Below, piece by piece: positions 6,634 to 62,620 of a stretch of 64,000 nucleotides of DNA. A model generated the notes under the pieces. The model was not told where the DNA came from, ran no database searches, and worked only from the letters and a program-made list of their open reading frames with translations. Origin of the DNA: Chitinophagales bacterium (GTDB taxonomy: Bacteria; Bacteroidota; Bacteroidia; Chitinophagales; Chitinophagaceae); assembly GCA_015654695.1 (NCBI GenBank), contig JAATGJ010000132.1, positions 62,001 to 126,000 on the forward strand. Direction: 5' to 3'. Position numbers and translations under genes: made by a program. Position 1 is the first letter of the stretch, and the number at the start of each line of letters is the position of its first letter.

Positions 6634-7311
6634 TTATTTGCCGTCTTTCGCAGCTTCCGCTTTCATTTTTTCATTGGCAGAAACAAGGAACTCTACGCGG
6701 CGATTTTGCGCCTGGCCTTCTTCCGTAGTATTTACATACTTGGGCGCCGTTTCACCAAATCCCTTAATGTTGAGCCGTGAGGAAGCAATACCATTTCCAG
6801 ATAAATAATCGGAAACAGCGGAAGCCCTTTGTTCAGAGAGTTTCTGGTTGTACTTGTTAGTTCCTGTATTATCTGTATGTCCCTGCACCTCGATATTGGT
6901 ATCCGGGTATTTTTGCAGGATTGCCACTAATTTAGCCAGGTTCGTCCGGGCATCTGCTGTAAGAGCAGATTGATCGAAGCCAAACAATATCTTGCTGTTA
7001 AATTCAATGATAATCCCTTCTCCTATTCTTTCTATGGTAGCATCCGGAATATCTTTTTTCATTTCTTCCGCCTGCTTATCCATCTGGCGACCAATAACTG
7101 CGCCGGTAACTCCGCCTACCGTGGCTCCAATGATAGCGCCCAATGCTGTATTGCCAGCTACTCTGCCAATAATGGCGCCTGCGGCTGCGCCTCCTGCCGT
7201 TCCTATTACCACTCCCTTTTGTGTTTTATTCCATGTTTTGCAGCTAACGGAAAAAAGGGAGGTCATTACTAAACAGGCAAATAAAATTTTTGTTGCTTTC
7301 ATAGTGTTCAT
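6634..7311 (-). CDS. OmpA-family lipoprotein with glycine-zipper segment
   Basis: A 225-residue envelope protein. It starts with a lipoprotein signal (MTSLFSVSC, probable lipid-carrying Cys). A glycine-zipper stretch follows (GTAGGAAAGAIIGR...GATVGGVTGAVIGRQMDK, ~35-80), then an OmpA/MotB peptidoglycan-binding domain (~100-215) with VQGHTDNTGTNKYNQKLSEQRA and the NRRVEF motif. It is therefore predicted to tether the outer membrane to peptidoglycan. An identical layout is common in Bacteroidota stress loci. A copy of the shared 40-bp element lies ~119 bp upstream (7429-7469). MKATKIL (residue 4) is an alternative start. Confidence 0.92.
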   Translation of the reverse strand: MNTMKATKILFACLVMTSLFSVSCKTWNKTQKGVVIGTAGGAAAGAIIGRVAGNTALGAIIGATVGGVTGAVIGRQMDKQAEEMKKDIPDATIERIGEGIIIEFNSKILFGFDQSALTADARTNLAKLVAILQKYPDTNIEVQGHTDNTGTNKYNQKLSEQRASAVSDYLSGNGIASSRLNIKGFGETAPKYVNTTEEGQAQNRRVEFLVSANEKMKAEAAKDGK

Positions 7312-7428
7312 TCAGATTAATAATACTAACACTGTATCAGGCTTTCTTTTATTAAAACTGCCTTTACAGTATAACTGGTTTTACTTGTTTTACCAGTTTG
7401 CAAAGATGGCTGTAATAAAGAAGGTAAA

Positions 7429-7469
7429 TGTTACACAACTCCCGGAATATGTTACATCATTCTCACATT
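7429..7469 (-). promoter_or_regulatory. shared regulon element, copy A (upstream of OmpA-like gene)
   Basis: Read on the minus strand: TGTGAGAA, ATGTAAC, TTCCGGGA, TGTGTAAC. The two GTAAC boxes are 21 bp apart, as in seven other copies between here and 15.02 kb. The proximal box lies ~119 bp before the OmpA-like ATG. Confidence 0.75.
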
Positions 7470-7619
7470 ACGTGATACTTCCTGTTTTGCATGGCTGCAA
7501 TAAGAAGGGATTATATTTTCAGGGTAATGGTTTACCATAAAAAATTTATTTCAGCATGTACTGTTCCCCAGGAAACAGGTTGAAGTACAGGTGACACATC
7601 CAATGAGAGTATCACCCAA

Positions 7620-8018
7620 TTAATTGATAAAGGAGTTACCATGCAGGTCAGCAATGGTTAAAAGAAATACTGATTCTTCAATGGCAATTAATGTATGTCT
7701 CAGGTCTGCATGAAAGGTTAATAAGCTCCCTTTCTTCAGCATGACGGATTGTTTCTCCGTTTGGAAATGCACTTTTCCTTCAATTAATTGCACGCTTACG
7801 AGGTTACCAGATTGGTGGAAATTAATTTCCGTCTGCCCGTGTAATGCAATCAATACAATTTTCATATAGGGACCTTCCAGGAAAGTAATTACATTCCGTT
7901 CCCCCATTTTCCAATTACCTTCCTGTTTGATCTTTTTAATGACTTCAGGCAGATCAAAGGGGAATAAAGGACCATCCGGTAACCTATGCTCATTGTGATA
8001 GTACGGCTTATTCTCCAT
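7620..8018 (-). CDS. small cupin-fold protein
   Basis: A 132-residue cytoplasmic protein with a single cupin beta-barrel: the strand pattern INFHQSGNLVSVQLIEGKVHFQTEKQSV followed by LKKGSLLTFHADLRHTLIAIEESVFLLTI. The second cupin motif keeps a His (LRHTL), but the first lacks the usual HxH, so metal binding is doubtful. Function unknown. It lies 97 bp after the kinase at 8116-8922 on the same strand and may be read through from the motif-B promoter. The 8019-8115 spacer has only a weak resemblance to the shared element, which was not called. Confidence 0.7.
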   Translation of the reverse strand: MENKPYYHNEHRLPDGPLFPFDLPEVIKKIKQEGNWKMGERNVITFLEGPYMKIVLIALHGQTEINFHQSGNLVSVQLIEGKVHFQTEKQSVMLKKGSLLTFHADLRHTLIAIEESVFLLTIADLHGNSFIN

Positions 8019-8115
8019 TGAGTGATTGATTTTTTATTAATTACTATTATTGCATACAGCAGTTCCGGCATTTATTAACACTGTTGCTGTTGCAAAATAG
8101 TGCCCGGTGTTTTTC

Positions 8116-8922
8116 TTATTGAAATTGATGTGCCAGTACCGGAACAGGTTTTTCGTAGAAATATTTTCCGGATGGCTGAATGTTATCGAAAGATAGAATG
8201 AAACGTGTTCCCCTGCCCTCTTCCGATTGCACAGCTACCCCGGCATGGCTTGACAGGAGAATATCCAATGTTGTTGACAATCCAAGACCCATTCCGCATG
8301 GCTTGTTAGTGAAATAAGGTTTAAATATATTCTTTAGATTTTCTTTACTGATGCCGATACCATTGTCTTCGATCTCTATAATGTATTTGTCCTTTACTGA
8401 TCTTGTAACCAGTTTTAATTTTCCCTTTTCCGGGCGCATGGCATCAATGGCATTTATAATAATATTTGTCAGGGCAATTTTCATTTTCTGCTTATTCACC
8501 CAAATAGTACAGTCCATGGGAGTATAATCTTTTGCAACTATAATGTTTTTAAGCATTATCCTGTCACTGGTCATGGCCAGTACTTCGTCGAGCAACTGGT
8601 GAATGGAATGTTTTTCCGATTTTATTTCAACTGCCTGATAGTAAGCCAGCAGATCAGTGACTACATCGTTTATCCGCCCGGATGCGCGCATAATAATGTC
8701 CAGGTATATTTTCTGATCATCGTCGCTGAGTGTTGATTTCAGCATTTCTACCGCCAGGTTGATATTTGACAATGGGTTGCGCACTTCATGTGCCAGGGCG
8801 GCAGCAAATTGACCTGGATGTTCCTCCACTACTTTGGGCGGGGTGAGGGACATGTACTGGTTTGCAGGCAATGGATAACTAATGGGTTTCCTGGCATTGC
8901 GGTTAATTGTGGGCTGGTTCAT
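8116..8922 (-). CDS. soluble histidine kinase without sensor domain
   Basis: A 268-residue histidine kinase: a ~35-residue N-terminal tail, then HisKA with the phosphoacceptor His45 in AAALAHEVRNPLSNI, then an ATPase domain with the N box (IIINAIDAM), G1 (DNGIGI) and G2 (GMGLGLS). No membrane segment or PAS domain, so the input must come from a partner protein or another kinase. No response regulator is adjacent. A copy of the shared element (8996-9035) lies 75 bp upstream, so the kinase is itself in the regulon and could form a feedback arm. Start chosen at MNQPTINR, the first Met after that element. Confidence 0.93.
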   Translation of the reverse strand: MNQPTINRNARKPISYPLPANQYMSLTPPKVVEEHPGQFAAALAHEVRNPLSNINLAVEMLKSTLSDDDQKIYLDIIMRASGRINDVVTDLLAYYQAVEIKSEKHSIHQLLDEVLAMTSDRIMLKNIIVAKDYTPMDCTIWVNKQKMKIALTNIIINAIDAMRPEKGKLKLVTRSVKDKYIIEIEDNGIGISKENLKNIFKPYFTNKPCGMGLGLSTTLDILLSSHAGVAVQSEEGRGTRFILSFDNIQPSGKYFYEKPVPVLAHQFQ

Positions 8923-8995
8923 TTTCTTAGGTTTTAGCTTGGTGTGTACTGAGAAAAAGATGCTCTATAAAGATGCCATCATTTGCCACAATAAT

Positions 8996-9035
8996 TGTTA
9001 TACATATCCGGGAATATGTTACATTATTCACACAT
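8996..9035 (-). promoter_or_regulatory. shared regulon element, copy B (upstream of soluble kinase)
   Basis: On the minus strand: TGTGTGAA, ATGTAAC, TTCCCGGA, TGTATAACAAT, with 21 bp between the paired boxes. It lies 75 bp before the kinase ATG at 8922 and is one of the copies closest to consensus. Confidence 0.8.
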
Positions 9036-9205
9036 TATAAGAAGGTATTTCACTTACCGGGCACAGCATGTTGACGGCTGTATAAAGAAGTACCCGGGAT
9101 ATTTATCTGGCAGGTAACTAAGGATGAGATATCCCTGCGTTTTAATTAAGCGACCCATTCATTCCCGTGTATGTAATTATTTCTTATAATAAGGCAGGCT
9201 TGCCC

Positions 9206-11029
9206 CTACGCTGCATGTAAAGCCAAAACAACTTTTAACTCAAACCCTTTTCCTGGTTTTGATGCGATAGTAACGCTGCCATGATATAGTTCCGCCCTGC
9301 TTTTGATATTGATAATGCCCACACCGTTATTTTCTTTCTGTATATCACAACCTTTTCCGTCGTCTGAAATAAGCAATATGATCTTCTCTTCGCGCTTGCT
9401 TAAATTAATGGTAGCACGGGTAGCTTTGGAGTGTTTTAAAATATTGTTCACCTGTTCCTGCACGATCCGGAAAATAGTCCTTTGCAGCTTTTCATCCAGG
9501 TCTTCGCCGGCAATACCATCCTCATGAAACTCAATTTTAATTGATTGCAGCCTGACCAGGTCATGTAATAAATTATTTATATTATCAGAAAGGCCGATAA
9601 TATGCTTGCCCGGGATCACTAAGGTTTTGGAAATATTCCTGATCTCATCTATCACATTCCCTATGAACTCGCAGGATTTCTCAAGGTACATTTCCCTGTC
9701 AGTTTCATAGGTTTTTGCCATCTGTATATACAGTTTAGCGACGGCCAGTATCTGGCCCAGGTTATCATGCAGTTCTTTTCCAAGGTCTGCCCTTTCCTTC
9801 TCCTGCGCCGTCAGCACTGCATCAGTGATCTCCCTGTGCCTTTTCAGTATGCCTTCCGCTAACTTATTTTCCAGTAAAACTTTTTCGGAGATATCTGTTT
9901 CAATAGCAAAAAACCGTTCGCAATTACCTTTTTCATCGAATAAAGGTTGCCCCTGGATATGCATCCAATACTTACGGCCTGACTTACTGTAGTTAATGAT
10001 AACGCAATCAAAAGATTTTTTGTCTTTTATTCTTTGCCTTAAATATTGAACAATAGAGGGATCCGTTTCTTTTCCCTGCAAAAAGCTACCCGGTTTTCTG
10101 CCCATCACTTCTTCCGGCTCGTATTCACTGATTTGGGTAAAGGCGCTGTTGACCCAGGTGATCTTTCCTTCCATGTCGGTAATAATAACGGCATTGACTG
10201 TTTGGCGGGCTATCAGTGATAATTTTTTTTCACTTTCCAGCAATTTAATTTCAATTAATTTCCTGGCCGTGATATCCTGGGTGGCGCCAATCATCCGGGA
10301 TATTTTTCCCTCCTCATAAATTATATGCCCGCGATCATGAACATAAGCATATTCGCCGTTAGCCCTTTTAAACCTGTATTCATCTTCCCATAAAGACACT
10401 GTTCCCTGGGCGATAATTTTATTTAATCTTGTCAATATGCGATCCTTATCATCAGTATGTATGCGACTTTCCCAAAAACTCGCAGGAATAAGTGCATTCT
10501 CTGTTGGGTAGCCAAAAATTCTTTTATGCCCCCCGTCTATCCAGAATATGTCCTTTGTCTGAAAGTTCCGTTCCCATAGACAATCATTTGTAATTTTTGT
10601 CACCGACCGGTAGAGTTCGTTTAAAGCTTTTAGCTGCTTCACCGGCTTCAACGGCTTGTTATTGCTTTTGAAAGAAACAGATAAGGTATCGCCGCCATAA
10701 TACGTAATTACGTCAAACCACGCCCCCATTTCCCCCCAATATTCTTCAAAATAAGCTGGAATGTCCTGTAGAAATGCTTTATGGTAAATTGCGGAAAACT
10801 CTAATGGGATGATTTCTGCAAAGCTTTCCCAGACATTCTTACCAACTATTTCCGTAGCCTTGACACCTAATAATTTTTCCGCCGCCCTGTTCCAGTATTT
10901 TACCGTCCATTCGCGGTTTACCGTAAAGAAGCCATTAATGATAACTTCAGTAATAGGTTTTCCCGGATAGCTAGTATTACTTTCCGTTTTCTGAACGCCT
11001 TTGAAAGATGAAAGAAGTTTAAGAGGCAT
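9206..11029 (-). CDS. multi-PAS histidine kinase of the HisKA_3 (NarX/LuxR-linked) type
   Basis: A 607-residue cytoplasmic sensor kinase. PAS domains lie at about residues 25-125 (VNREWTVKYWNRAAEKLLGV), 140-260 (a PAC segment with RMIGATQDITARK) and 265-390 (VNSAFTQISEYEPEEVMGRKPGSFLQG, a PAS/LOV-like region; LOV chemistry would need Cys in a GRNCR motif, which here reads GRKPGS, so it is not a photoreceptor). HisKA_3 has His421 in GKELHDNLGQIL; the ATPase domain ends at ~605 with SDDGKG and NGVGIINI. Kinases of this class normally pair with NarL-type regulators, but none is adjacent; the orphan at 32535-33194 is one candidate. It is 66 bp downstream of the cupin gene and probably in an operon with it. 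Confidence 0.93.
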   Translation of the reverse strand: MPLKLLSSFKGVQKTESNTSYPGKPITEVIINGFFTVNREWTVKYWNRAAEKLLGVKATEIVGKNVWESFAEIIPLEFSAIYHKAFLQDIPAYFEEYWGEMGAWFDVITYYGGDTLSVSFKSNNKPLKPVKQLKALNELYRSVTKITNDCLWERNFQTKDIFWIDGGHKRIFGYPTENALIPASFWESRIHTDDKDRILTRLNKIIAQGTVSLWEDEYRFKRANGEYAYVHDRGHIIYEEGKISRMIGATQDITARKLIEIKLLESEKKLSLIARQTVNAVIITDMEGKITWVNSAFTQISEYEPEEVMGRKPGSFLQGKETDPSIVQYLRQRIKDKKSFDCVIINYSKSGRKYWMHIQGQPLFDEKGNCERFFAIETDISEKVLLENKLAEGILKRHREITDAVLTAQEKERADLGKELHDNLGQILAVAKLYIQMAKTYETDREMYLEKSCEFIGNVIDEIRNISKTLVIPGKHIIGLSDNINNLLHDLVRLQSIKIEFHEDGIAGEDLDEKLQRTIFRIVQEQVNNILKHSKATRATINLSKREEKIILLISDDGKGCDIQKENNGVGIINIKSRAELYHGSVTIASKPGKGFELKVVLALHAA

Positions 11030-11095
11030 ATTTTCCTTGTTGAGTGATCAATAGATCAAGGGTAAGGAATAGCTTATCGTCGGTTAAGATAACAT

Positions 11096-11461
11096 TTACT
11101 CATACCCGCTTTTAATAATCGTCCGGATCATTTTAAACCGCCCGTTTGGATTGATAAAATTCGGTGAACGGGCAGGTATGATAATTCCTTCGCCCGATTG
11201 AAGCACATGGGATACTTTATCAATAACGATCTCCGCTATGCCCTCAACGATCTGGGCAAAAGTGTCAAAAGGAGAAGTCTTCTCTGTCAATCCTTCCCCG
11301 CTGTCAAAAGACATGACGCTTATATTTCCCGTTGATTTTTTGATGATCGTTTTGATCACTACGGAATTTGCCATATACTCAATGATCTCAACAATGATAT
11401 GCGCTTTTGATTTTTGCTGTTCGGCCGTGTCCGGTTTTACTTCTTTTAATTTATTGTCCAT
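11096..11461 (-). CDS. cupin-domain protein
   Basis: A 121-residue single-domain protein matching the compact cupin pattern: ISVMSFDSGEGLTEKTSPFDTFAQIVEGIAEIVIDKVSHVLQSGEGIIIPARSPNFINPNG carries the two conserved beta-hairpin motifs (residues ~48-108). The usual metal-binding His residues are mostly missing (EKTSPFD in place of HxHxxxE), so a non-enzymatic ligand-binding or sensory role is more likely; this is inference. It is the first gene after element C and lies just upstream of the multi-PAS kinase, so it may act in that signalling unit. Confidence 0.8.
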   Translation of the reverse strand: MDNKLKEVKPDTAEQQKSKAHIIVEIIEYMANSVVIKTIIKKSTGNISVMSFDSGEGLTEKTSPFDTFAQIVEGIAEIVIDKVSHVLQSGEGIIIPARSPNFINPNGRFKMIRTIIKSGYE

Positions 11462-11605
11462 GATCTGAAACTTTATTGGGTGGCTTTAGCAGCGAACGAA
11501 CAGCGATAAACATTAAAAAAGGGCCAAGGATAAAAATCCGGCCCCGTTATAATCCAATATCCTATGAAAAACTTATACAAAGGTAGGCGCCTGATTCACC
11601 CTGAT

Positions 11606-11645
11606 TGTTATATGATCCTGCTATTCTTTTACATAATTCACACAT
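11606..11645 (-). promoter_or_regulatory. shared regulon element, copy C (upstream of cupin-kinase operon)
   Basis: On the minus strand: TGTGTGAA, ATGTAA, CATATAACAAT, with the same 21-bp spacing. The central TTCCnGGA is degenerate here. It lies 146 bp before the cupin ATG at 11461. Confidence 0.65.
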
Positions 11646-11665
11646 TTTACGTGTTAAACCTTTCA

Positions 11666-12400
11666 TCAGGCTATTTCATTAATGACGGGCCTCAGTCTAT
11701 CAATATGTTTATTAGCCTGCGCCCATGCTACCATCTTTTTCGCCACTTCTTTTGATGAAGCGGGATTTTGCCCGGTGATGATATTGCCATCAACCACTGC
11801 ATAGCTGACATAGTTATCTCCTTTGCTGTACAATGCACCAACAGAACGCAGCCTTGTTTCTAATAAGAAAGGTACCAGGTTGGTCAACCCGGCAGATTCC
11901 TCTTCGCTGTTGCTAAAGGCGGTGAGTTGTTTACCTTCTACTACTAACTTTCCTTTATTATTCTGCAATGCTAACAAACCCACTACCCCGTGACATACTG
12001 CGCCTATTGGTTTGCTGACATTATTAAAAGCTTCCAGCAATTGCGTTACAATTTTGTTGCCTGCAATATCCCACATAGGGCCATGCCCGCCGGGCAGAAA
12101 TAGCATGTCAAAATCATCAGCCCTTACTTCTTCCAGCAGGACAGCGTGAGATAAAAAATTCATTGCTTCCGGGTCTTTCAGAAAACGCTTTGTACTGTTG
12201 GTGGCAACTATGATAGACTGACTTTTGGGGTCCAGCGGAACCCGGCCACCTTTGGGCGAAGCCACCGTAATACTGGCCCCTGCCTCTTTAAATACATAAT
12301 AGGGAGCGGCCATTTCTTCCAGCCATACCCCGGTCTTTCTGCCGGTATCTCCAAGTGTATCATGCGAGGTAGCTATGAATAAAACTTTTGCTGATTTCAT
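11666..12400 (-). CDS. DJ-1/PfpI family (class I glutamine amidotransferase-like) protein
   Basis: A 244-residue cytoplasmic protein with an alpha/beta DJ-1/PfpI fold. The nucleophile elbow Cys is in GAVCHGVVGLL, with LPGGHGPMWD upstream and a WLEEMAAPYYVF segment near the N-terminus typical of the Hsp31-like/type 1 GATase subgroup. Members act as glyoxalases/deglycases or stress chaperones; which applies cannot be told. Start placed at 12400 (MKSAKVLFIATS) because the fold begins there; the frame is open to 12436. It follows the lmo0937-like gene by 60 bp and is probably the last gene of the CsbD operon. Confidence 0.88.
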   Translation of the reverse strand: MKSAKVLFIATSHDTLGDTGRKTGVWLEEMAAPYYVFKEAGASITVASPKGGRVPLDPKSQSIIVATNSTKRFLKDPEAMNFLSHAVLLEEVRADDFDMLFLPGGHGPMWDIAGNKIVTQLLEAFNNVSKPIGAVCHGVVGLLALQNNKGKLVVEGKQLTAFSNSEEESAGLTNLVPFLLETRLRSVGALYSKGDNYVSYAVVDGNIITGQNPASSKEVAKKMVAWAQANKHIDRLRPVINEIA

Positions 12401-12460
12401 GATGTGCAACTTTTTATTAACAGGATAAAAATTCACTCTTGCTGAATTTCCCGGAAATTT

Positions 12461-12616
12461 CTAAAAGATCTTCTTGCCCTGGATAACCCGCAGTAATATG
12501 GCAATAAGCGCTATGACAAGCAGAACGTGAATGATGCCGCCCGCATGAAATCCAAAAAAACCAACCAGCCATCCAATGACAAGGATGACGGCAACGATAT
12601 AAAGTACATTTCCCAT
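12461..12616 (-). CDS. lmo0937-family small membrane protein
   Basis: A 51-residue protein that fits the lmo0937/DUF5670 pattern: MGNVLYIVAVILVIGWLVG, then FFGFHAGGIIHVLLVIALIAILLRVIQGKK. Two membrane helices are joined by a GFHAGGIIH hairpin containing the family's conserved Gly/His residues. Such proteins are recurrent members of general-stress regulons; the molecular role is unknown. It sits between csbD-like (54 bp upstream) and PfpI (60 bp downstream) on the same strand, so a three-gene operon from element D is likely. Confidence 0.88.
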   Translation of the reverse strand: MGNVLYIVAVILVIGWLVGFFGFHAGGIIHVLLVIALIAILLRVIQGKKIF

Positions 12617-12670
12617 AAGTTTGTTTTGTATAATCAATAAAACTGATTTGCTATTTTCCGGAACAGATGG

Positions 12671-12859
12671 CTACAGCGCACCAATAATTTTATACAGCTC
12701 GTCTTTGGTTTTACCCAGTTTGAGCTGAAGTTTTCCCAGCATTTCCTCTTTCTTGCCGGCCGCAAACAACAGATCATTATCTGTTAATAATGCGAACTTT
12801 TGTTTCAACTTTCCTTTTTGTTCATTCCAGCTATCTTTCATGTCGGTGATACTTGCCAT
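12671..12859 (-). CDS. CsbD-like general stress protein
   Basis: A 62-residue hydrophilic protein: WNEQKGKLKQKFALLTDNDL, then GKKEEMLGKLQLKLGKTKDE, the repeated WxxxKGKxKxxxxxLTDxDL / GKxxxLxGKLQ pattern of the CsbD family. CsbD is induced by general stress in many bacteria; its biochemical role is unknown. The frame is open upstream to 13006, but that part overlaps regulatory element D, so the start is taken as the ATG at 12859 (MASITDMKDS), 67 bp below the element. It is the first gene of a probable csbD - lmo0937 - PfpI operon. Confidence 0.9.
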   Translation of the reverse strand: MASITDMKDSWNEQKGKLKQKFALLTDNDLLFAAGKKEEMLGKLQLKLGKTKDELYKIIGAL

Positions 12860-12924
12860 TCTGTTTCGTTTAATTCTTACTAGAGTATTGATAGTACAAA
12901 GGTGTGATCCTTTTGACAGGTAAT

Positions 12925-12964
12925 TGTTACATAAACGAAGGTATATCTTACATCTTTCACACAT
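12925..12964 (-). promoter_or_regulatory. shared regulon element, copy D (upstream of csbD operon)
   Basis: On the minus strand: TGTGTGAA, ATGTAA, TATGTAACAATTA, with 21-bp spacing between boxes. It ends 67 bp before the CsbD start and decides that start against the longer open frame. Confidence 0.78.
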
Positions 12965-13075
12965 TATTGTTAAGGATATCCGTATGCCTGTGTTATAACG
13001 CTGCAATAATCTTATATGGTTGAATGCTCCGGTGACTGAATCATTTTTTCATCATACCTCCATCTATGCATAAAG

Positions 13076-13103
13076 AAAAACCCCTGTAGAAACAGGGGTT
13101 TTT
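13076..13103. terminator. strong hairpin terminator (orphan transcript)
   Basis: A 12-bp perfect stem (13076-13087 with 13092-13103, AAAAACCCCTGT/ACAGGGGTTTTT) with a 4-nt loop. T tracts on either strand make it potentially bidirectional. On the minus strand it ends the orphan transcript that starts below element E. Confidence 0.85.
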
Positions 13104-13170
13104 AACCAAAACTAACTGCTATGAGAAATTAAATATTCTTTTGTACTCGCTTATGTAAAGATGGCTTCTT
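13076..13170 (-). ncRNA. putative small regulatory RNA under element E
   Basis: Between regulatory element E (13183-13222) and the perfect terminator at 13076-13103 there is ~80-100 bp on the minus strand with no ATG in any frame. A transcript started by element E would therefore be a short RNA ending in a GC-rich hairpin plus U tract, as bacterial sRNAs do. The 5' end is a guess made by analogy with the other copies. No known RNA family was recognised. Confidence 0.5.
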
Positions 13171-13182
13171 ATTTTTTAAAAT

Positions 13183-13222
13183 TGTTACACAATTCCTGAA
13201 AACATTTACATCTTTCACACTT
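13183..13222 (-). promoter_or_regulatory. shared regulon element, copy E (upstream of orphan transcript)
   Basis: On the minus strand: GTGTGAA, ATGTAAAT, TTCAGGAA, TGTGTAACAAT, with 21-bp spacing. Downstream there is no gene, only a ~100-bp stretch ending in a terminator. The distal end touches the stop of the broken small ORF at 13222-13386. Confidence 0.75.
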
Positions 13223-13386
13223 TACTTTTCTTCGCCGGCTTCCGGCTCCATTGACAGTTCTTTTTGACCGGCATTGGTCAGTTCAACTTCACATGAAATG
13301 GGACATCGTCTCCCCTATCAGGCGCCGGTTTCTATGGCTGTATTCCAGCAAAGCCCTATGCTTTCATATTTTGTTTGATTTGACAT
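13222..13386 (-). pseudogene. broken small ORF (two in-frame stops)
   Basis: From the ATG at 13386 the minus strand reads MSNQTKYESIGLCWNTAIETGA, two adjacent stops (TGA TAG), then in the same frame GRRCPISCEVELTNAGQ and a short acidic tail ending in a stop at 13222. The part after the stops has protein-like composition (a CPxxC pair, acidic tail), suggesting a 54-codon gene inactivated by point changes. No family was recognised, and chance cannot be excluded at this length. Confidence 0.3.
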
Positions 13387-13424
13387 TGTTTTGTTTTTAA
13401 ATGTTTATTAGCTGGATATGTATA

Positions 13425-13808
13425 TCAGCTTGTTGAAAAATATTCCCGTACAAAAGCATACTGCTGGTTCTCCGTCATCTTATCAGTTTGCCTGATTTCA
13501 ATTTTTATTTTTGTAAACCGGTTATCCGCTTTTAAAAGATTAAGCAGCTCCGCTTTCGCACTGGTAGGCCCAAAGAGAATGACCGCTTCGTAATTCCTGA
13601 TCACCTCACCCAGCTTTCTATAGTATTCCGATTGCTGATGCTGTTCCTTATTATGCATCAGGTGCTCACTCTTTTCAAAACTCTGTTCTTTTGTCTCGTT
13701 GGTAAACTTTGATTCTATGATTTTTGTTTCAATGGGGCCGGTGGTAAATTCCATTACATGGGCATTGGAATGATCCATCCAAATACCTAAATTTTTTGTT
13801 GTGATCAT
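13425..13808 (-). CDS. conserved hypothetical protein, eRF1/host-attachment-like fold suspected
   Basis: A 127-residue cytoplasmic protein: NLGIWMDHSNAHVMEF at the N-terminus, a charged middle (FEKSEHLMHNKEQHQQSEYYRKLGEVI) and a C-terminal alpha/beta core (AVILFGPTSAKAELLNLLKAD...IKIEIRQTDKMTENQQYAFVREYF). The GPTSAKAELLN and TDKMTxNQ segments resemble bacterial proteins annotated as translational-machinery or eRF1-domain-3-like; this is a loose recollection. Start taken at MITTKNLG (13808); the frame is open to 13841. It is 190 bp downstream of the 13999-14286 gene and may share its element-F promoter, as no copy precedes it directly. Confidence 0.6.
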   Translation of the reverse strand: MITTKNLGIWMDHSNAHVMEFTTGPIETKIIESKFTNETKEQSFEKSEHLMHNKEQHQQSEYYRKLGEVIRNYEAVILFGPTSAKAELLNLLKADNRFTKIKIEIRQTDKMTENQQYAFVREYFSTS

Positions 13809-13998
13809 TGTATTTGTTGTTTTACTGTTTATTGATTTCATCCTGCAGCTAATAATAAAAGTGTAAGCCTGGCAATAATTATTTTTATCACTTGAAATGA
13901 GTGGGGATGACTATTAAGCGTTGCTAACGGCCTATGCCTGTACTTGTTTTTTACGATAGTATAATGAAGTGTGTACAGCGAACAGTATCAATGCTGTG

Positions 13999-14286
13999 CT
14001 ACCTGATAATATGAAGATTGTTTTTGTATTCAATGATAGTACGCAATACTTTAAGTTTCTCATTGATCCTGATCCTGAGGTAACTGTTAAACCTGCTTTT
14101 CCCGACTGCACTCAGCGCATTTTCATATGTGATGACAGCTTCCTCAAAATGACCGCTGTTTTCATTCCGCAGAGCTTCAAGAAACAATTCAACAGGAACG
14201 TTCCTTTTTCGGAGTATCAATGTCCTGATCATGAAAATCACCAGCGATAACACCATGATCAAAAAAAATGAGTAATAGAACGGCAT
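13999..14286 (-). CDS. small membrane-anchored protein with one TPR-like repeat
   Basis: A 95-residue protein with one N-terminal membrane helix (SFFLIMVLSLVIFMI, ~6-22), a basic stop-transfer patch (LRKRN), then a helical pair that fits a tetratricopeptide repeat (ELFLEALRNENSGHFEEAVITYENALSAV) and a further basic helix (LRIRINEKLKVLRTI). It is probably anchored in the inner membrane with the repeat in the cytoplasm as a protein-interaction module. Function unknown. Element F lies 65 bp before its ATG, so it belongs to the block's regulon. Confidence 0.75.
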   Translation of the reverse strand: MPFYYSFFLIMVLSLVIFMIRTLILRKRNVPVELFLEALRNENSGHFEEAVITYENALSAVGKSRFNSYLRIRINEKLKVLRTIIEYKNNLHIIR

Positions 14287-14349
14287 AAGCAGAATTTTTA
14301 GAGCCCTATTATAAATCTCTATGAAGGTGGTTCTTTTTGCAGGGTTTAT

Positions 14350-14389
14350 TGTTACATAACTTCAGGAAAGAGTTGCATAATTCACACAT
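14350..14389 (-). promoter_or_regulatory. shared regulon element, copy F (upstream of TPR mini-protein)
   Basis: On the minus strand: TGTGTGAA, ATGCAAC, TTCCTGAA, TATGTAACAAT, with 21-bp spacing, ending 65 bp before the ATG at 14286. Confidence 0.75.
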
Positions 14390-14457
14390 AGTGGAACCGG
14401 TATTTCCCCTGCAGGTGGTTCCGCCAAAAACAGAACAAAATAGCAGGGCCATTTAAT

Positions 14458-14676
14458 TTAAGAGAGAGGTATTTCTGTAAACGGCACGCCGCTTTTGTAT
14501 TCTCCGAGGATGATCACATCTTTATATTTGTTATACTGGCTGGCAGCATCTTCCATAGCCTGTTTGCTATCACTCCTGATTTTCATTCCTTTTTTCACTC
14601 CTTTATCGCACACTTCAATGTAAAACCCATTCTTTAATTCTATCTGCGCTACCCTTGGTCTTCCCCTGCTTTTCAT
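14458..14676 (-). CDS. small conserved hypothetical protein
   Basis: A 72-residue soluble protein: basic N-terminus (MKSRGRPRVAQIELKNGFYIEVCDKG), then KKGMKIRSDSKQAMEDAASQY and YKDVIILGEYKSGVPF. The RGRPR motif resembles AT-hook-like basic elements, but the rest looks like a small beta-rich domain rather than a DNA-binding fold. No family name can be given. Element G lies 110 bp upstream, so it is a member of the same regulon. Confidence 0.7.
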   Translation of the reverse strand: MKSRGRPRVAQIELKNGFYIEVCDKGVKKGMKIRSDSKQAMEDAASQYNKYKDVIILGEYKSGVPFTEIPLS

Positions 14677-14784
14677 TATTTATGCTATTAAGGTTTTGAA
14701 AATTACTTACCCGGCATTGAAACAGAACTGTTTTGCCTGCCCATCCCGGAATCCGGCTAAGCTATTGTATTGTTTTGGTAATAG

Positions 14785-14824
14785 TATTATAACATTCTGG
14801 AATAATGTTACATATTTCACATAT
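14785..14824 (-). promoter_or_regulatory. shared regulon element, copy G (upstream of 14458-14676)
   Basis: On the minus strand: ATGTGAAAT, ATGTAACAT, TTCCAGAATG, TTATAATA, with 21-bp spacing. Its distal end overlaps the stop of the AraC remnant at 14817-14936. Confidence 0.72.
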
Positions 14825-14936
14825 CCTTCAGCATGGTGAGCCTTTTGTCCCTAAGTTGTTTGAAATGAGAAGGTGTCAGGTCTGTCACTTTCTTAAACCG
14901 GGTGGAAAGATGAGCCGCACTGCTGTAGTACAATAA
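14817..14936 (-). pseudogene. C-terminal remnant of an AraC-family regulator
   Basis: Forty codons bounded upstream by an in-frame stop read YYSSAAHLSTRFKKVTDLTP followed by SHFKQLRDKR, the last helix-turn-helix of an AraC/XylS regulator (family pattern: Y-S-S-x-A-H-L-S-x-x-F-K-K-x-T-G-x-T-P-S-x-F). There is no start codon or N-terminal part, so this is a gene relic. The usual Gly after KKVT is Asp here. Its end overlaps element G. Confidence 0.8.
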
Positions 14937-14979
14937 TTAATTTTGGGTGTCTTTTATGCCTGCTTAGTGTTCCTTATAA

Positions 14980-15019
14980 AAGTGTGAATTATGTAATAAA
15001 TTCCCACAATTCTGTAACA
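14980..15019 (+). promoter_or_regulatory. shared regulon element, copy H (facing right)
   Basis: On the plus strand: AGTGTGAA, ATGTAATAA, TTCCCACA, TCTGTAACAG, with 21-bp spacing. It is the only copy facing right. It is followed by a ~270-bp stretch with no clear gene that ends in a terminator at 15265-15294. Confidence 0.72.
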
Positions 15020-15024
15020 GTTGC

Positions 15025-15294
15025 TTCGGTAAATAGTCAGAGCTTTATACCTGGTTATTGCAAAAATTAAAAATTGGAAAACCTATCATTATAAAAGAAC
15101 CTGACATCAAAGCAAAGTAACCTCAACGTTACCTTTAATGGAGCAAAAGTACAGGGACGGAATAGCGAAGTATCCAATGCCGTGGTTCAACCCGGGTAGA
15201 GTCTTTCAGTCAATTAAAGGATCTCGCAGATTCAATTAAACTTTAATCCTCCCTTCACTTATAGACACCCCGGTAACCATTGGGGTGTTTTTTT
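15025..15294 (+). ncRNA. putative orphan transcript (sRNA or mini-ORF) under element H
   Basis: Element H faces right into ~270 bp that ends in a terminator hairpin with eight T residues. The only notable frame is 15138-15239, 33 residues (MEQKYRDGIAKYPMPWFNPG... to RRFN), with no recognised family or clear ribosome site. A small hairpin (GTAAC/GTTAC, near 15117-15132) lies just before it. The RNA could be non-coding, a dual-function RNA, or the mRNA of this mini-protein. The 5' end is estimated. Confidence 0.45.
15265..15294 (+). terminator. Rho-independent terminator of the element-H transcript
   Basis: Stem ACACCCC (15265-15271) with GGGGTGT (15282-15288), followed by a continuous T run on the plus strand. 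It also separates this transcript from the convergent caspase gene. Confidence 0.8.
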
Positions 15295-15445
15295 AGGCAC
15301 CCTGCAAAATCTTTATGCAGGATACCGCAGATAATTCATTCTTATTCCTCTGGCCAAATATGTCCCCGGAATATTGCTTTGCAGATTCACCTGTAAAAAT
15401 ATTCACGTTGAAAACGTCATTGAGTATTACCGGGGATATAAAAAT

Positions 15446-16783
15446 CTATTCCATTTTAAAAGCAGGATTTTGTACACAAACTTTGCGGCTGTTATCTTCC
15501 TGCTTACACCATGTATGTTTGGCTTTATTAATAGTTTGCGCTTGTGCTGTAGTCAATAAACTGTTCCAGGAAACATTGAAAAAGAACGGGCCTATAGATT
15601 TTTCCAGTGACTCACGAAGATTAAAAGTAAAAATGCCACCGGTAGTATTGCCTGCAGACAGCTCGCCCTTGGATGCGGCGGTCATCAATACGGAAAGCGG
15701 TTTTTCATTCATAAAAAGAGCCCTGCAGTTTTCCATGCTCCAGCCAATAGATGAATTGCGGGTAGTAGCGCCATCGCTGCTCACCAGGCTCGTTTGTGTT
15801 GGATCAGCATTGCAGCAATCGCTGAAAACCAGGTTAAGCCTGGCGCCTTTCGCTTTTATTCTTTTATAAATATCTTCTATATTAAGTGTATAGGCGCCGC
15901 CATAGTTTTGAAAGGTCTTATCCCTGAGATCGAGGAAGGGAAATCTCTGGCTGCTCTTTACATCATTGAATCCATGGCCTGAGTAATAAAAAACAACGAT
16001 ATCACCCGGAGCGGGCTTTATCGCATTGATGGCATTGTCCACATTTACTTTACTAAACTCCTTTCCAAATATTACCGTAGGTACAAATTGAATTTCGAGA
16101 AATTCCGCCAGTTGGCTGAAAGTTTTATACGTAACATCCTTATCCACGACACAAGTAGTACCGATAGATATATCCTCCGTATTGGCGACTACTAATAAAA
16201 ACAGCCGGGTGTTTTTTTGCTGCGGTGTCAGGCTTCTTACCGTTGTTTCAAAAAGGTTTATATAAAATTCATCCTTTGGTGTAAAATACTGCGATACCAG
16301 TTCCTTTGTAAGATCCTCCTGGTTCAGCAGTTTCATTTTTGTAATCTCTCCCTGCACATCCTCATTATTATCCCCCTCCGATACAACAGCCCATGGTTCA
16401 TAAAAACCGGTTTCTTTGTTTTTCTCAAACCAGAAAACATCAGGATCGTATTCCACATCAGCGCCCCCAATGATCACCTGCGGGTCAATTCCTTCAAAGA
16501 TCAATATACTGCTGTCGGTCTTCTTGCTATCGTTTTCATCCTCATCCCCCATATAATGCTCCTGCATCAGCATATTTACCACAATAGGAGTCTGGGTTTT
16601 TTCATCAGGAAACCTTACCCTGATAAAACCCGTACCATCGTCGTTTCTTACCAGGAAGGCGTTGTAATGCTCCCGTACATTATTTACGTCAAAATAATAA
16701 TCAAACTCATATATGGATGGCTGCGCATAAGAGAGGCCGCTGATAAGAACAAACAGGGCCAGTAGCAGATATCTTGATATCAT
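15446..16783 (-). CDS. exported caspase-like (peptidase C14) protein
   Basis: A 445-residue protein with a signal peptide (MISRYLLLALFVLISGLSYA) and a C-terminal caspase/metacaspase domain (~195-420). The catalytic dyad is visible: His270 in VVFYYSGHGFND and Cys324 in LVFSDCCNA, matching the family's H-G and D-x-C motifs; ANTEDISIGTTCVVD supplies the first strand. The N-terminal ~190 residues show no known domain. Metacaspases cut after Arg/Lys. Export suggests a periplasmic or surface role rather than classic cytoplasmic cell death, which is unusual. It has its own transcription unit and converges on the element-H transcript. Confidence 0.88.
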   Translation of the reverse strand: MISRYLLLALFVLISGLSYAQPSIYEFDYYFDVNNVREHYNAFLVRNDDGTGFIRVRFPDEKTQTPIVVNMLMQEHYMGDEDENDSKKTDSSILIFEGIDPQVIIGGADVEYDPDVFWFEKNKETGFYEPWAVVSEGDNNEDVQGEITKMKLLNQEDLTKELVSQYFTPKDEFYINLFETTVRSLTPQQKNTRLFLLVVANTEDISIGTTCVVDKDVTYKTFSQLAEFLEIQFVPTVIFGKEFSKVNVDNAINAIKPAPGDIVVFYYSGHGFNDVKSSQRFPFLDLRDKTFQNYGGAYTLNIEDIYKRIKAKGARLNLVFSDCCNADPTQTSLVSSDGATTRNSSIGWSMENCRALFMNEKPLSVLMTAASKGELSAGNTTGGIFTFNLRESLEKSIGPFFFNVSWNSLLTTAQAQTINKAKHTWCKQEDNSRKVCVQNPAFKME

Positions 16784-32534: not shown

Positions 32535-33194
32535 CTAAAGACCGTTTGAGTTAATGAAATTTACAAGCGCCGCTGTATTCTTTAATTTCAATTTTTTAAG
32601 AATATTATAGCGGTGAACCTCTACTGTTTTGAGGGAAATATCAAGTTGCAAAGCGATCTCTTTTGAAGAAAGTCCCTGTTTAATATGCTGGATGATGTCT
32701 ATTTCCCTTCTTGACAGGTTATTCATATCTCCCGGTGTGGCCTCTTCCTCCAGCTCTTTTTGAGCCAGAATATTTTTCACCTCTTCACAAATATACTTGC
32801 GTCCGCTATTCACTTCAATGATAGCTTTAATCATCTCATCTTTTGATGAGTTCTTGGTTACATAGCCCATGGCTCCTACCTGCATCATTCGTTTGGCATA
32901 AGCCGGCATAGTATGCATAGAAACGGCAATAACTTTTGACCCGGGAGAATACTTGTGAATTAGTTTCGTAGCATCAAAACCATTTACAGGCGACATGTTT
33001 ACATCCATTAAAACTATATCAGGCTGTAATTTTTTTACGATTACCACCGCTTCATCGCCATCGCTTGTTTCGCCAATTACGGTGAACCGGGGGTCACTGT
33101 TGAGTATAAATGACCAGGAATCTCTGATCAGTTTGTGATCATCCACTAATATGATAGAGATTTGTTTCAATATGGTATGCTGAAGAGATTTCAA
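32535..33194 (-). CDS. NarL/FixJ-family response regulator (orphan)
   Basis: A 219-residue regulator: receiver with phospho-Asp in DIVLMDVNMSPVNGFDA and signalling Lys in YVTKNSSKDEM, then a LuxR-type HTH (LSRREIDIIQHIKQGLSSKEIALQLDISLKTVEVHRYNILKKL). No kinase gene is adjacent. HisKA_3 kinases, the usual partners, are at 9206-11029 and 46199-47635. Its receiver is closely similar to the two NarL-type regulators at 47.6-48.9 kb, so a shared pool of partners is plausible. It was considered as a candidate binder of the 40-bp element; there is no direct evidence. Confidence 0.94.
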   Translation of the reverse strand: MKSLQHTILKQISIILVDDHKLIRDSWSFILNSDPRFTVIGETSDGDEAVVIVKKLQPDIVLMDVNMSPVNGFDATKLIHKYSPGSKVIAVSMHTMPAYAKRMMQVGAMGYVTKNSSKDEMIKAIIEVNSGRKYICEEVKNILAQKELEEEATPGDMNNLSRREIDIIQHIKQGLSSKEIALQLDISLKTVEVHRYNILKKLKLKNTAALVNFINSNGL

Positions 33195-33954
33195 GAGAAA
33201 TAAGGTTTATAAGTGCATAAGTTAAGAAAAAAGGGATTGTCAAAAAAAAATTATTACACGGTAAGGGTATTTGCTTATTTCCTAATCTCCTCTTTATTGA
33301 CGCTACCGGCAATTATTACCCCCAAATAAAGTGAAGATGGCAGCAATTTATGAATTACATTAGGAAATTTAAGACAAATTGCGGATTAAATCTCCCTTAT
33401 TCAAATACTTTTTGAGAAGTTTGGTTTACAAACAATAAATGATTAACCCTTAACCATTTCTCCCGCAAATGCTGGTGGGGCAACTTTAACCGGCTTTTTA
33501 GCTGGTTAAATTGTCTTGCGATATAATAGCTGTTACATACCAGTAATTCGAACCGAATTAAACTGAAGGCTGCAATATGTCATCCCCTGAAACTTCAGGA
33601 TGATCTGGATAGTAGCTGTTAATTATCCCGTGCCGGAAGATTAGCAAAAATACATGACTCAATAAATTGTTTATAAGTACTTACTTTATAAACGCTTTTT
33701 CTTCGGGATATAGATAATTTTTGTAGCTTTTCATTATATAGCCAATTGACCAAAATTTTTTGAAAGCAGGATCATAAAAACATATTGTGAAAAAATTACC
33801 TGGTCTGCCATGTGAACAAGGCGGGTAGGGTAAGTAATGGTATCGTTGGTGACAAAATGAAAAGTTGCTATTTATTCCGGCTAAACCCTGATGACGGCTT
33901 AACAGATTTTTAATTACATGCTTCGTTCTTAAACTTTATACATAAAACTCTACA
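33195..33954. other. 760-bp intergenic region between divergent signalling genes
   Basis: AT-rich spacer between the NarL-type regulator (minus) and the hybrid kinase (plus). No ORF of note and no copy of the shared 40-bp element were found. It contains a GGCTTTTTAGC-type hairpin near 33488-33506 and a short CCTGAAACTTCAGG palindrome near 33586-33600. A long untranslated leader or a divergent control region seems likely. Confidence 0.5.
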
Positions 33955-61800: not shown

Positions 61801-62620
61801 GGCGAAGATTCAATAATGACGGGAACCAGTAAGTAACCACCCGGATAACGAGCAGGGACAAACCCAGGAAAGCTATCCCCTGCCAGATCTTCCTTCTTCT
61901 TGTTAATGATTCTGCAAATGAATGAATAAGCAGCAGTAAAAAAATAATACCCCCGAGCCTCAGCCATAAGGTGAGCCTGCTGTTATAAGGTACTGCGCCG
62001 GAGGCCTTTTTATCAAGGTAAAAAATTGTCTTTCCCGATAAAGTAACGGGAAATGAGGTTTCAACTTTACTGATCACTACCCGCTGATCAGCCGTATTGC
62101 TAAAAAAGAAATGTTTGGGGAGATAGTCTGTATTGAGAAAGAAATCGGATTGTACCGGGATCAGGGCATAAGCCACTACAGTATGTTCACTATATTGAAT
62201 TGACCGCTTGATCACAAAATAATGCCCGTTCAAAAGATCCATAAAGCTTTCAAAATCGCCATCGGCATAGGTTTCCGGTGGGGGCAGTATCAGCTGGCTG
62301 CTCCAAAAGTTCATGGACAGTATCCCATCATTACTGACAGTATATAAAAAAATACCATAGCGCCTCGCTATGACAGACTCAAATTCTTTTCCAGATTCCG
62401 CATTCCTGATAAGTTTGAGTACAAGGGAACTATCGCTGAGAAATTCATGGAAGTTTTGCTGTTTATCCTCGAGGTATTCTTCAGCATATTTTTTTTCAGT
62501 TACGATGGAAGTCCTGTCAGTATATATTTTATTGAAAACATAAGAAAGGGTGAAAAGTACAATCGCCGCTATCAGCAAACCAAGTTTCCAGAAAAAGTTA
62601 TTTCGTAAGAGGGGCTTCAC
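58874..62620 (-). CDS. large NtrY-like membrane histidine kinase
   Basis: A 1248-residue sensor kinase. One N-terminal helix and a periplasmic domain (~35-205) are followed by a cluster of about ten helices (~210-480), another periplasmic region, two more helices with a second sensor region, HAMP (~950-1005, ITRSFSLISDKMKEV), HisKA with His1042 (MARQVAHEIKNPLTPMKLSIQYL) and HATPase (DNGEGIP, GTGLGLAMV). The AHEIKNPLTP motif is typical of the NtrY subgroup. The very long sensor region suggests membrane- or lipid-related sensing. It abuts mazG (no spacing between the stop of mazG and its start) and may be co-transcribed with it. Confidence 0.93.
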   Translation of the reverse strand: MKPLLRNNFFWKLGLLIAAIVLFTLSYVFNKIYTDRTSIVTEKKYAEEYLEDKQQNFHEFLSDSSLVLKLIRNAESGKEFESVIARRYGIFLYTVSNDGILSMNFWSSQLILPPPETYADGDFESFMDLLNGHYFVIKRSIQYSEHTVVAYALIPVQSDFFLNTDYLPKHFFFSNTADQRVVISKVETSFPVTLSGKTIFYLDKKASGAVPYNSRLTLWLRLGGIIFLLLLIHSFAESLTRRRKIWQGIAFLGLSLLVIRVVTYWFPSLLNLRQFELFDPSIYGANIIQRSLGDLLFNSLLFCWFVLFAWGKVQRAEIIGSRMPLWLRWVTGIISLCLLIYSTFILSSVIRSIVADSKISFDVTDFFSLNSYSVVGFIVLACLSLAYYYFTQILFRIIFPLFKENTWPIYFAIGFAGLVYLTVRSGDPTVLFYIPVLAWLLLYTWLVNRRGLIIYNIRINIAGILFWIFVFSVSISMIMLAENKKAEWKKRQFFAEKLAVQMDPSSERLMSIAIQYLDNDFLSDNFYRFTDSAGGKLLRDSIITGNYKGYLNKYDTRLYIYDSTGKPIFNEDVTTYETLNNIVNVQAKATGTPDLFYYETSFEKFTYITERIMRDTSGNKLGSFFIISNPKNYSSDALFPVLFKQYKKNDPENSPIYSYAIYSKKKLVSRSDKYSFPTRLTDKQIPRDEFKRVLTGGFDEMWYRASNEKVVIMVRKRDTIIESITLFSYLFCSFLFLITLVQLISFILRTGYNWRGFRKLLQLNIRTQVHSTIIFISIFSFTIIGVATISFFISRYNRTNSDKLSRTMKIMVKEMEKKIGDHKTFDDVLTLYDSVSNFSLQQLADEVSDIHGVDVNVYDLRGDLQVSSEPNVYEKGVLSKKIDPTAFYHLNRLNQVEWVQEEYIADFAYLSVYAPVMDNETGNIYAYLSIPYFTSEQELNQEISNFIVTIINLNAFIFLIAGLIALFITNRITRSFSLISDKMKEVNLAKINEEIVWNRNDEIGELVKEYNKMVNKLEQSAAALAKTEREGAWREMARQVAHEIKNPLTPMKLSIQYLQKSINSNQPNVKELSSSVATTLVEQIDHLAKIAADFSQFANIGITNVEKFDLHDVLRQLKELFQMNEQVEFAWYPIHQQVWIEADKTQMNRLFTNLFTNAIEACAKNCRLEVREELFNGSIRISIKDNGEGIPPDMQSRIFTPNFTTKSSGTGLGLAMVKGIIEQTKGKIWFETEQGNGSTFHVELPLVE

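Follow-up and report, generated by a model that had tools for sequence, protein, structure and literature searches.

A ~40-bp element that recurs in a 64,000-nucleotide stretch of a Chitinophagales bacterium genome (the window; positions 62,001 to 126,000 of contig JAATGJ010000132.1, assembly GCA_015654695.1) very probably serves as the binding site for a regulator that seems not to have been described before and that would activate a common set of stress-protection genes across many environmental Bacteroidota. Judging from sequence comparisons, we give a probability of roughly 0.8 to the more specific reading that the element is the operator of a promoter used by SigA polymerase and activated by an AraC-type regulator with an HMA-like N-terminal domain (HMA-AraC). 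The features that carry this proposal were computed directly: the element is a direct repeat, it stands at a fixed spacing from a -7 box, it recurs at set positions at the genes of the regulator, and it co-occurs with the regulator across genomes. In our numbering the assembly is G000 (5.42 Mb on 187 contigs) and the window is G000:C133:62001-126000.

A first-pass annotation of the window had reported eight copies of the element (A to H). All eight are present where it had placed them, seven on the minus strand and one (H) on the plus strand, and together they form a gap-free alignment of 47 columns. A pattern scan of the whole assembly that allowed ≤3 mismatches gave 14 matches, compared with 1 for the reversed pattern used as a control; 8 of the 14 lie in the window, 4 on contig C56 (locus L001), 1 on C89 (L002) and a weak one on C88. 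Model R1, a sequence-only model trained on 13 of these sites with the C88 match excluded, returned 26 matches in the assembly at an expect value (E) of ≤1, one of them an untrained match at C56:7921-7965 (33.3 bits). Model R2 was built from 104 of 194 candidate sites, hand-trimmed from the 151 printed. Building a matrix and scanning this and related genomes, the check that had been proposed, yielded six further strong sites in the assembly and hundreds in other Bacteroidota. We also observed a weaker, 19-bit site at C56:13323-13364 (+), between the strong C56 sites K and L.

When the matrix was compared with itself, a shift of 21 alone matched (10.0 bits over 12 columns; runner-up 0.9), and the element is therefore a 21-bp direct repeat, GAATTATGTAAC / nAATTGTGTAAC. 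In 54 untrained sites scoring ≥20 bits, the strong columns read ATGTGTGAATnATGTAA and TGTAACA, and the centre was weak. The element had been described as two GTAAC boxes always 21 bp apart; the 21-bp register holds in 8 of 8 copies, but an exact first-box GTAAC occurs only in A, B and G, the remaining copies having GTAAA, GTAAG, GTAAT or GCAAC. The repeat is consistent with the tandem-binding regulator suggested at the time. A central TTCCnGGA-like palindrome, also claimed, is clear only in A and B and dissolves in the wider set, where columns 27-30 carry ≤0.27 bits each across the 54 further sites. An inverted-repeat operator was rejected, since the best inverted self-match of the matrix reached 5.1 bits compared with 10.0 for the direct one. 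The same comparison, together with the lack of a linked regulator, led us to reject a NarL/LuxR-type operator: as for the orphan NarL-type regulator proposed earlier, the sole NarL-type open reading frame (ORF) from a motif scan of the window (32538-33206) lies 17.5 kb away, and no result links it to the element. Finally, in a comparison with a same-genus contig (L070), the element was more alike than the upstream 60 bp in 6 of 7 comparisons (the exception being G) but not clearly more alike than the downstream 80 bp, and we therefore set this footprint aside as support.

The regulator most likely belongs to a family of small AraC proteins whose N-terminal domain resembles a copper chaperone. 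The intact family member in this assembly (G000:C56:7298-7873, 191 aa) matches Pfam HTH_18 at 6.5e-17, with both HTH_18 and HTH_AraC above the Pfam cut-off, in agreement with the C-terminal domain of ~100 aa and two helix-turn-helix units that defines AraC/XylS proteins. The structure predicted for an orthologue from locus L106 (81% identical) matched AraC-type DNA-binding domains (target TM score ~0.7-0.8), with a DNA-binding fold resembling those of MarA, SoxS and AraC. The N-terminal domain of the same orthologue was predicted to be beta-alpha-beta-beta-alpha-beta (mean pLDDT, the predicted local distance difference test score, of 89), which is the ferredoxin-like fold of heavy-metal-associated (HMA) domains, and Foldseek aligned it with Atx1/CopZ at a target TM score of 0.63-0.71 with weak E values of 0.08-0.2. 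Residues 2-71 also gave weak profile matches to CopZ and metal ATPases (E 0.006-0.9). The Pfam HMA cut-off of 24.8 bits was not reached by any of 8 family members scanned (best 17.9 bits), and the C56 protein gave no match. At the first position of the MV[S/C]xRC motif, 96 of 125 family members, including the C56 copy, have serine and 28 have cysteine. This makes classical metal binding doubtful, and the C56 protein itself has SxxC in place of the CxxC metal-binding motif.

The untrained 33.3-bit site lies 46 bp upstream of the start of the C56 regulator, which has its own copy of the element. The gene is followed, in the same operon, by a hybrid PAS histidine kinase and then a receiver-only response regulator. 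No DNA-binding domain was found in the receiver of this operon, which leaves HMA-AraC as its sole DNA-binding protein. The assembly also holds a second paralogue (G000:C173:24611-25144; L064 6612-7175), which is 48% identical and has CxxC; a 26-bit site spans its stop codon, and a receiver-domain gene comes next.

Outside this genome, we examined the best 80 of at least 585 loci from a protein-alignment search of named genomes, drawn from Flavobacterium, Chryseobacterium, Aquimarina, Algoriphagus, Echinicola, Sunxiuqinia, Dyadobacter, Mucilaginibacter and many metagenome-assembled genomes (MAGs). Of these protein-chosen loci, some of which may share species with the matrix-training genomes, 77 of 80 contained a site of ≥10 bits (170 matches, compared with 1 in reversed DNA). 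Sites recurred at two places: one mostly 39-70 bp upstream of the regulator start, and one across the regulator stop codon, where the motif encodes Glu-Asn-Val-stop in GAAAATGTGTGA. These positions repeat across many families of the phylum. Where the regulator was ≥60% identical to the C56 protein, 77 of 104 genes had an adjacent site; below that identity, 5 of 21 did. The 125 proteins divided in a tree, with weak support, into a group of 41 rows (29 with an upstream site, 12 with none) and a group of 84 (52 with a downstream site, 31 with none, 1 with an upstream site). Among 126 genes, 27 of the 30 with an upstream site were followed by a kinase, as were 14 of the other 96. The combination of site place and kinase pattern points to two forms of the gene, one an autoregulated signalling operon and the other an orphan regulator that overlaps the next promoter at its end. 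Regulator loci were also seen in two bins labelled Pseudomonadota and Ignavibacteriota (L180, a MAG labelled Limnohabitans, and L129, a MAG labelled Melioribacteraceae); L180 may be a misplaced contig, since its regulator groups inside Flavobacterium in the tree.

A Bacteroidota -7-type box, often CACCTTTR or CATCTTTR, follows the element 14 or 15 nt past column 47. Of 70 untrained sites in this genome and its relatives, 44 had a strict -7 box at this offset, where shuffles gave a mean of 1.3 and a maximum of 6; of 170 independent sites in the 80 further loci, 153 had a looser box there, against a shuffle mean of 4.4 and a maximum of 11. Sites were picked by the 47-column matrix, and the box lies outside that matrix. 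The boxes are weaker than the consensus, mostly through CA in place of TA. The first-pass annotation had stated that the element does not match the TTTG/TAnnTTTG promoter. That stands for the element itself, which lacks a -33/-7 match, but not for its surroundings, in that a -7 box follows at the fixed spacing in 6 of the 8 window copies; these six scored 7 of 7 points and the boxes at G and H were poorer. PMC9723704 places the Bacteroidota -7 box at -12 to -5. On that placement, the two GTAAC boxes would span roughly -59 to -55 (first box) and -38 to -34 (second box), and the fixed gap of 14-15 nt puts the whole repeat at about -74 to -28. A repeat so placed has the layout of AraC-type class II promoters. 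A period of 21 alone and a fixed -7 spacing are thus what we found of an AraC/XylS operator, and its assignment to HMA-AraC comes from position and co-occurrence.

The element and the regulator also occur together across genomes. Among 198 genomes of the order, 48 had a close regulator, defined as E ≤1e-75, a cut set after viewing the results (the association also holds at 1e-30 and 1e-60). The element was found at E ≤1e-4 in 42 of these 48 genomes compared with 25 of the 150 others (Fisher 4e-19), and at E ≤0.01 in 45 of 48 compared with 51 of 150. In a sample of 158 genomes from the phylum, 37 had the regulator (E ≤1e-60) and 24 the element (E ≤1e-4), with 20 having both, 17 the regulator alone, 4 the element alone and 117 neither (Fisher 9e-12); since genomes are related, both Fisher values overstate independence. 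The system is wide yet patchy in the phylum. Among single gene families, the element lay just upstream of 8 of 15 CsbD genes in close-regulator genomes, one of these 8 being the training site D, compared with 0 of 15 in genomes without a close regulator. When two near-cut genomes, G096 (2.5e-74) and G105 (8.3e-72), were counted as carriers, the figures were 8 of 17 and 0 of 13.

Several observations weigh against this assignment of the element to HMA-AraC. In the 80 loci, 24 of 85 close regulator genes had no adjacent site, and the strict -7 box was missing in 26 of the 70 untrained sites. At the level of the order, 3 of the 48 close-regulator genomes had no element at E ≤0.01, and 6 of 53 genomes with strong sites (G130, G141, G161, G173, G193 and G052) lacked the regulator at E ≤1e-30; a laxer search of those six found no HMA-type copy and, in four, picked up the AraC helix-turn-helix parts of other proteins. 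All six are drafts that are 87-98% complete, so that some of their genes are missing. In the phylum sample, 17 of the 37 regulator-bearing genomes had no element at E ≤1e-4, and 4 of the 24 element-bearing genomes had no regulator at E ≤1e-60. Genomes G302 and G307 each carried eight strong sites and no regulator at E ≤1e-60, weaker copies not having been sought, and a single generic AraC-like ORF was all that was recognised in the stretches examined around their sites.

These exceptions, together with the kinases and receivers that are common in site-bearing loci, lend some weight to the alternative that the same layout serves another binder, either a different AraC-type protein or a response regulator, and that the HMA-AraC gene is simply a frequent target. 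We consider this unlikely. The element tracks one AraC subfamily both in the protein-chosen loci and across genomes, HMA-AraC is the sole DNA-binding protein of its operon, the direct repeat fits a pair of AraC molecules, and the six genomes from the order are incomplete drafts. A second binder in the exception genomes is possible. Considerably less probable, in our estimate very much so, is that the element forms the core promoter of an alternative sigma factor, as the first-pass annotation had also suggested. Its fixed place before genes and the below-consensus -7 boxes would suit such a promoter, but we set this explanation aside because a SigA-type -7 box follows outside the element at a fixed spacing; moreover, the conserved ~40 bp take the form of a direct repeat, and they are unlike all six Flavobacterium psychrophilum sigma motifs given in the passages of PMC9723704 consulted. 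That the copies are a dispersed or mobile repeat with no regulatory role, as eight copies inside 8 kb might suggest, is scarcely credible, since this calls for near-identical copies with common flanks and the alignments show the opposite, with centre and flanks varying between copies, both boxes and the -7 spacing constant, and positions at regulator genes recurring in many families.

Returning to HMA-AraC as the activator, we propose that two AraC-type molecules would sit side by side on the direct repeat, 21 bp or two helix turns apart and hence on one face of the DNA. The protein bound to the promoter-proximal half, at about -38 to -31, would thereby replace the missing -33 contact and help SigA RNA polymerase use a weak -7 box by class II activation. 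Physical binding, and activation as opposed to repression, are predicted here, and the hybrid kinase and receiver of the C56 operon may provide the input to the regulator.

To characterise the genes served, the ORF downstream of each site was picked by a simple length rule (≥40 aa within 450 nt), and such an ORF was present at 239 of 245 sites. The largest clusters were the regulator itself (34), ice-binding/Ig-like proteins (24), the cupin-like family found at site C (22) and CsbD (14). A Pfam census covered 132 of 205 non-AraC ORFs, chosen by hand after dropping near-duplicates of other cluster members, very short ORFs and an ORF that lay off the contig. It gave Ice_binding 15, Big_5 7, CsbD 6, OmpA 5 and histidine kinases 3 in a set of 62, and outer-membrane barrels 4, BON 3, DUF1003 3, YceI 2, Band_7 2 and HMA 2 in a set of 70, the latter with MlaE, Usp and metal-transport domains as singletons. 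Site-bearing islands in genomes G204 and G199 contained further DUF892, ferritin, Usp and BrkB genes. A family search for ice-binding genes found 8 distinct ones above 100 bits, of which 5 had a site of ≥20 bits, one had a site of 8.8 bits and two had none; no site was found at 11 weaker ice-binding matches. The set looks like one for envelope, cold, desiccation and oxidative stress. The Pfam families and the islands agree with the general stress set that had been proposed, and the idea of one regulon is likewise supported. The set is stress-like by gene family, and the inducing signal would presumably be stress.

In the window, six of the eight promoters (A, B, C, D, F and G) head ORFs, and the stretch downstream of E and H has no clear gene. 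The sites and their surroundings are as follows.

Site A, 7424-7470, minus strand: OmpA/glycine-zipper gene 6634-7311; -7 box 7408-7401; predicted start 7396.
Site B, 8991-9037, minus strand: histidine kinase 8116-8922; -7 box 8975-8968; predicted start 8963.
Site C, 11601-11647, minus strand: cupin-like gene 11096-11461, then PAS kinase 9206-11029.
Promoter of site C, minus strand: -7 box 11585-11578 (TACCTTTG); predicted start 11573.
Site D, 12920-12966, minus strand: CsbD 12671-12859 and, further on, DJ-1/PfpI 11666-12436; -7 box 12904-12897; predicted start 12892.
Site E, 13178-13224, minus strand: ~75 nt with no gene, then a terminator-like hairpin 13103-13080; -7 box 13163-13156; predicted start 13151.
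Site F, 14345-14391, minus strand: 95-aa gene 13999-14286; -7 box 14329-14322; predicted start 14317.
Site G, 14780-14826, minus strand: at the 3' end of the AraC remnant and upstream of a 72-aa gene 14458-14676; poor -7 box 14764-14757.
Site H, 14978-15024, plus strand: no clear gene downstream; poor -7 box 15040-15047; predicted start 15052.
AraC-type regulator remnant, 14820-14933, minus strand: last 38 residues, 71% identical to an intact same-genus copy.

The copies had been placed 65-146 bp before a start codon or a terminator-ended stretch; from the edge of the element to the start codon we measured 59-140 bp for A-D, F and G. The HMA-like AraC regulator, which the earlier annotation does not mention, has a gene remnant between sites G and H, inside the very region that it described (14820-14933). 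Site G lies at the 3' end of this remnant as it does in intact relatives, and the remnant looks like the orphan form of the gene. The same-genus contig L070 has a similar gene order, sites at matching genes and an intact AraC gene. The small proteins after F and G had no Pfam match. Next to H lies a 445-aa ORF (15446-16783, minus strand) that, by eye, resembles a secreted caspase-type peptidase.

Sites E and L share CATARCAGTTAGYTTTGGT just before a terminator-like hairpin (window 13105-13123, minus strand; L001 13561-13579, plus strand). A regulon small RNA at these places was considered and rejected: CATARCAGTTAGYTTTGGT is present with ≤2 mismatches in 67 of 117 genomes of the family, L225, L234 and other loci have copies, and several inspected close copies lie at the ends of other genes or, read in reverse, at gene starts, so that it is not specific to the regulon. 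An Rfam search of positions 7000-15600 gave nothing at the gathering score, and two weak matches (E 0.08 and 0.29) were taken as chance.

A broader synthesis, to which we give somewhat less than even odds as a whole, would describe a general-stress system, wide but patchy in environmental Bacteroidota, that needs no alternative sigma factor. Its AraC activator, with a copper-chaperone fold, would derive from a metal sensor that lost one of its metal-binding cysteines, and would be coupled to a hybrid histidine kinase and to a receiver-only protein; acting at 21-bp tandem sites on SigA promoters, it would activate a regulon for ice binding, the envelope and oxidative stress. To our knowledge, no master switch of the Bacteroidota stress response is known in the phylum, and the proposal, if true, would supply a regulator, an operator and a target list for that response. 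It would also have a single operator govern ice-binding proteins together with CsbD and envelope proteins, and join a copper-chaperone-like domain, mostly minus one cysteine, to AraC-type control. The operator, the -7 spacing and the regulator are defined precisely enough for testing in one laboratory strain. No recognisable publication on the regulator or the element was found in the literature searched, a scope outside which preprints and most subscription journals fall. The regulator architecture, the operon and the regulon were not met in that literature, whereas AraC-type activation is textbook knowledge.

The closest known systems are the AraC/XylS activators that act at class II promoters, such as Escherichia coli AraC at araBAD and Pseudomonas XylS. 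The candidate shares with them the AraC DNA-binding domain and a direct repeat of 21-bp period that overlaps the -35/-33 region. It differs in that its N-terminal domain is copper-chaperone-like where theirs binds a sugar, that its operon also encodes a hybrid kinase and a receiver-only protein, that its regulon comprises many promoters and that, in one of its forms, the operator overlaps the regulator's own stop codon. Its N-terminal domain resembles the HMA copper chaperones Atx1 and CopZ, as well as the domains with which copper ATPases bind metal, in predicted fold, in weak profile matches and in the MVCxRC motif of 28 of 125 members, but the first cysteine is serine in 96 of 125 and the Pfam HMA score of 17.9 bits falls below the cut-off of 24.8. 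Finally, SigB, RpoS and PhyR-EcfG control general stress regulons with overlapping gene types (CsbD, DUF892, ferritin, Usp and BON); here, by contrast, a predicted transcription factor would act on promoters with SigA-type -7 boxes, and no alternative sigma factor is implied.

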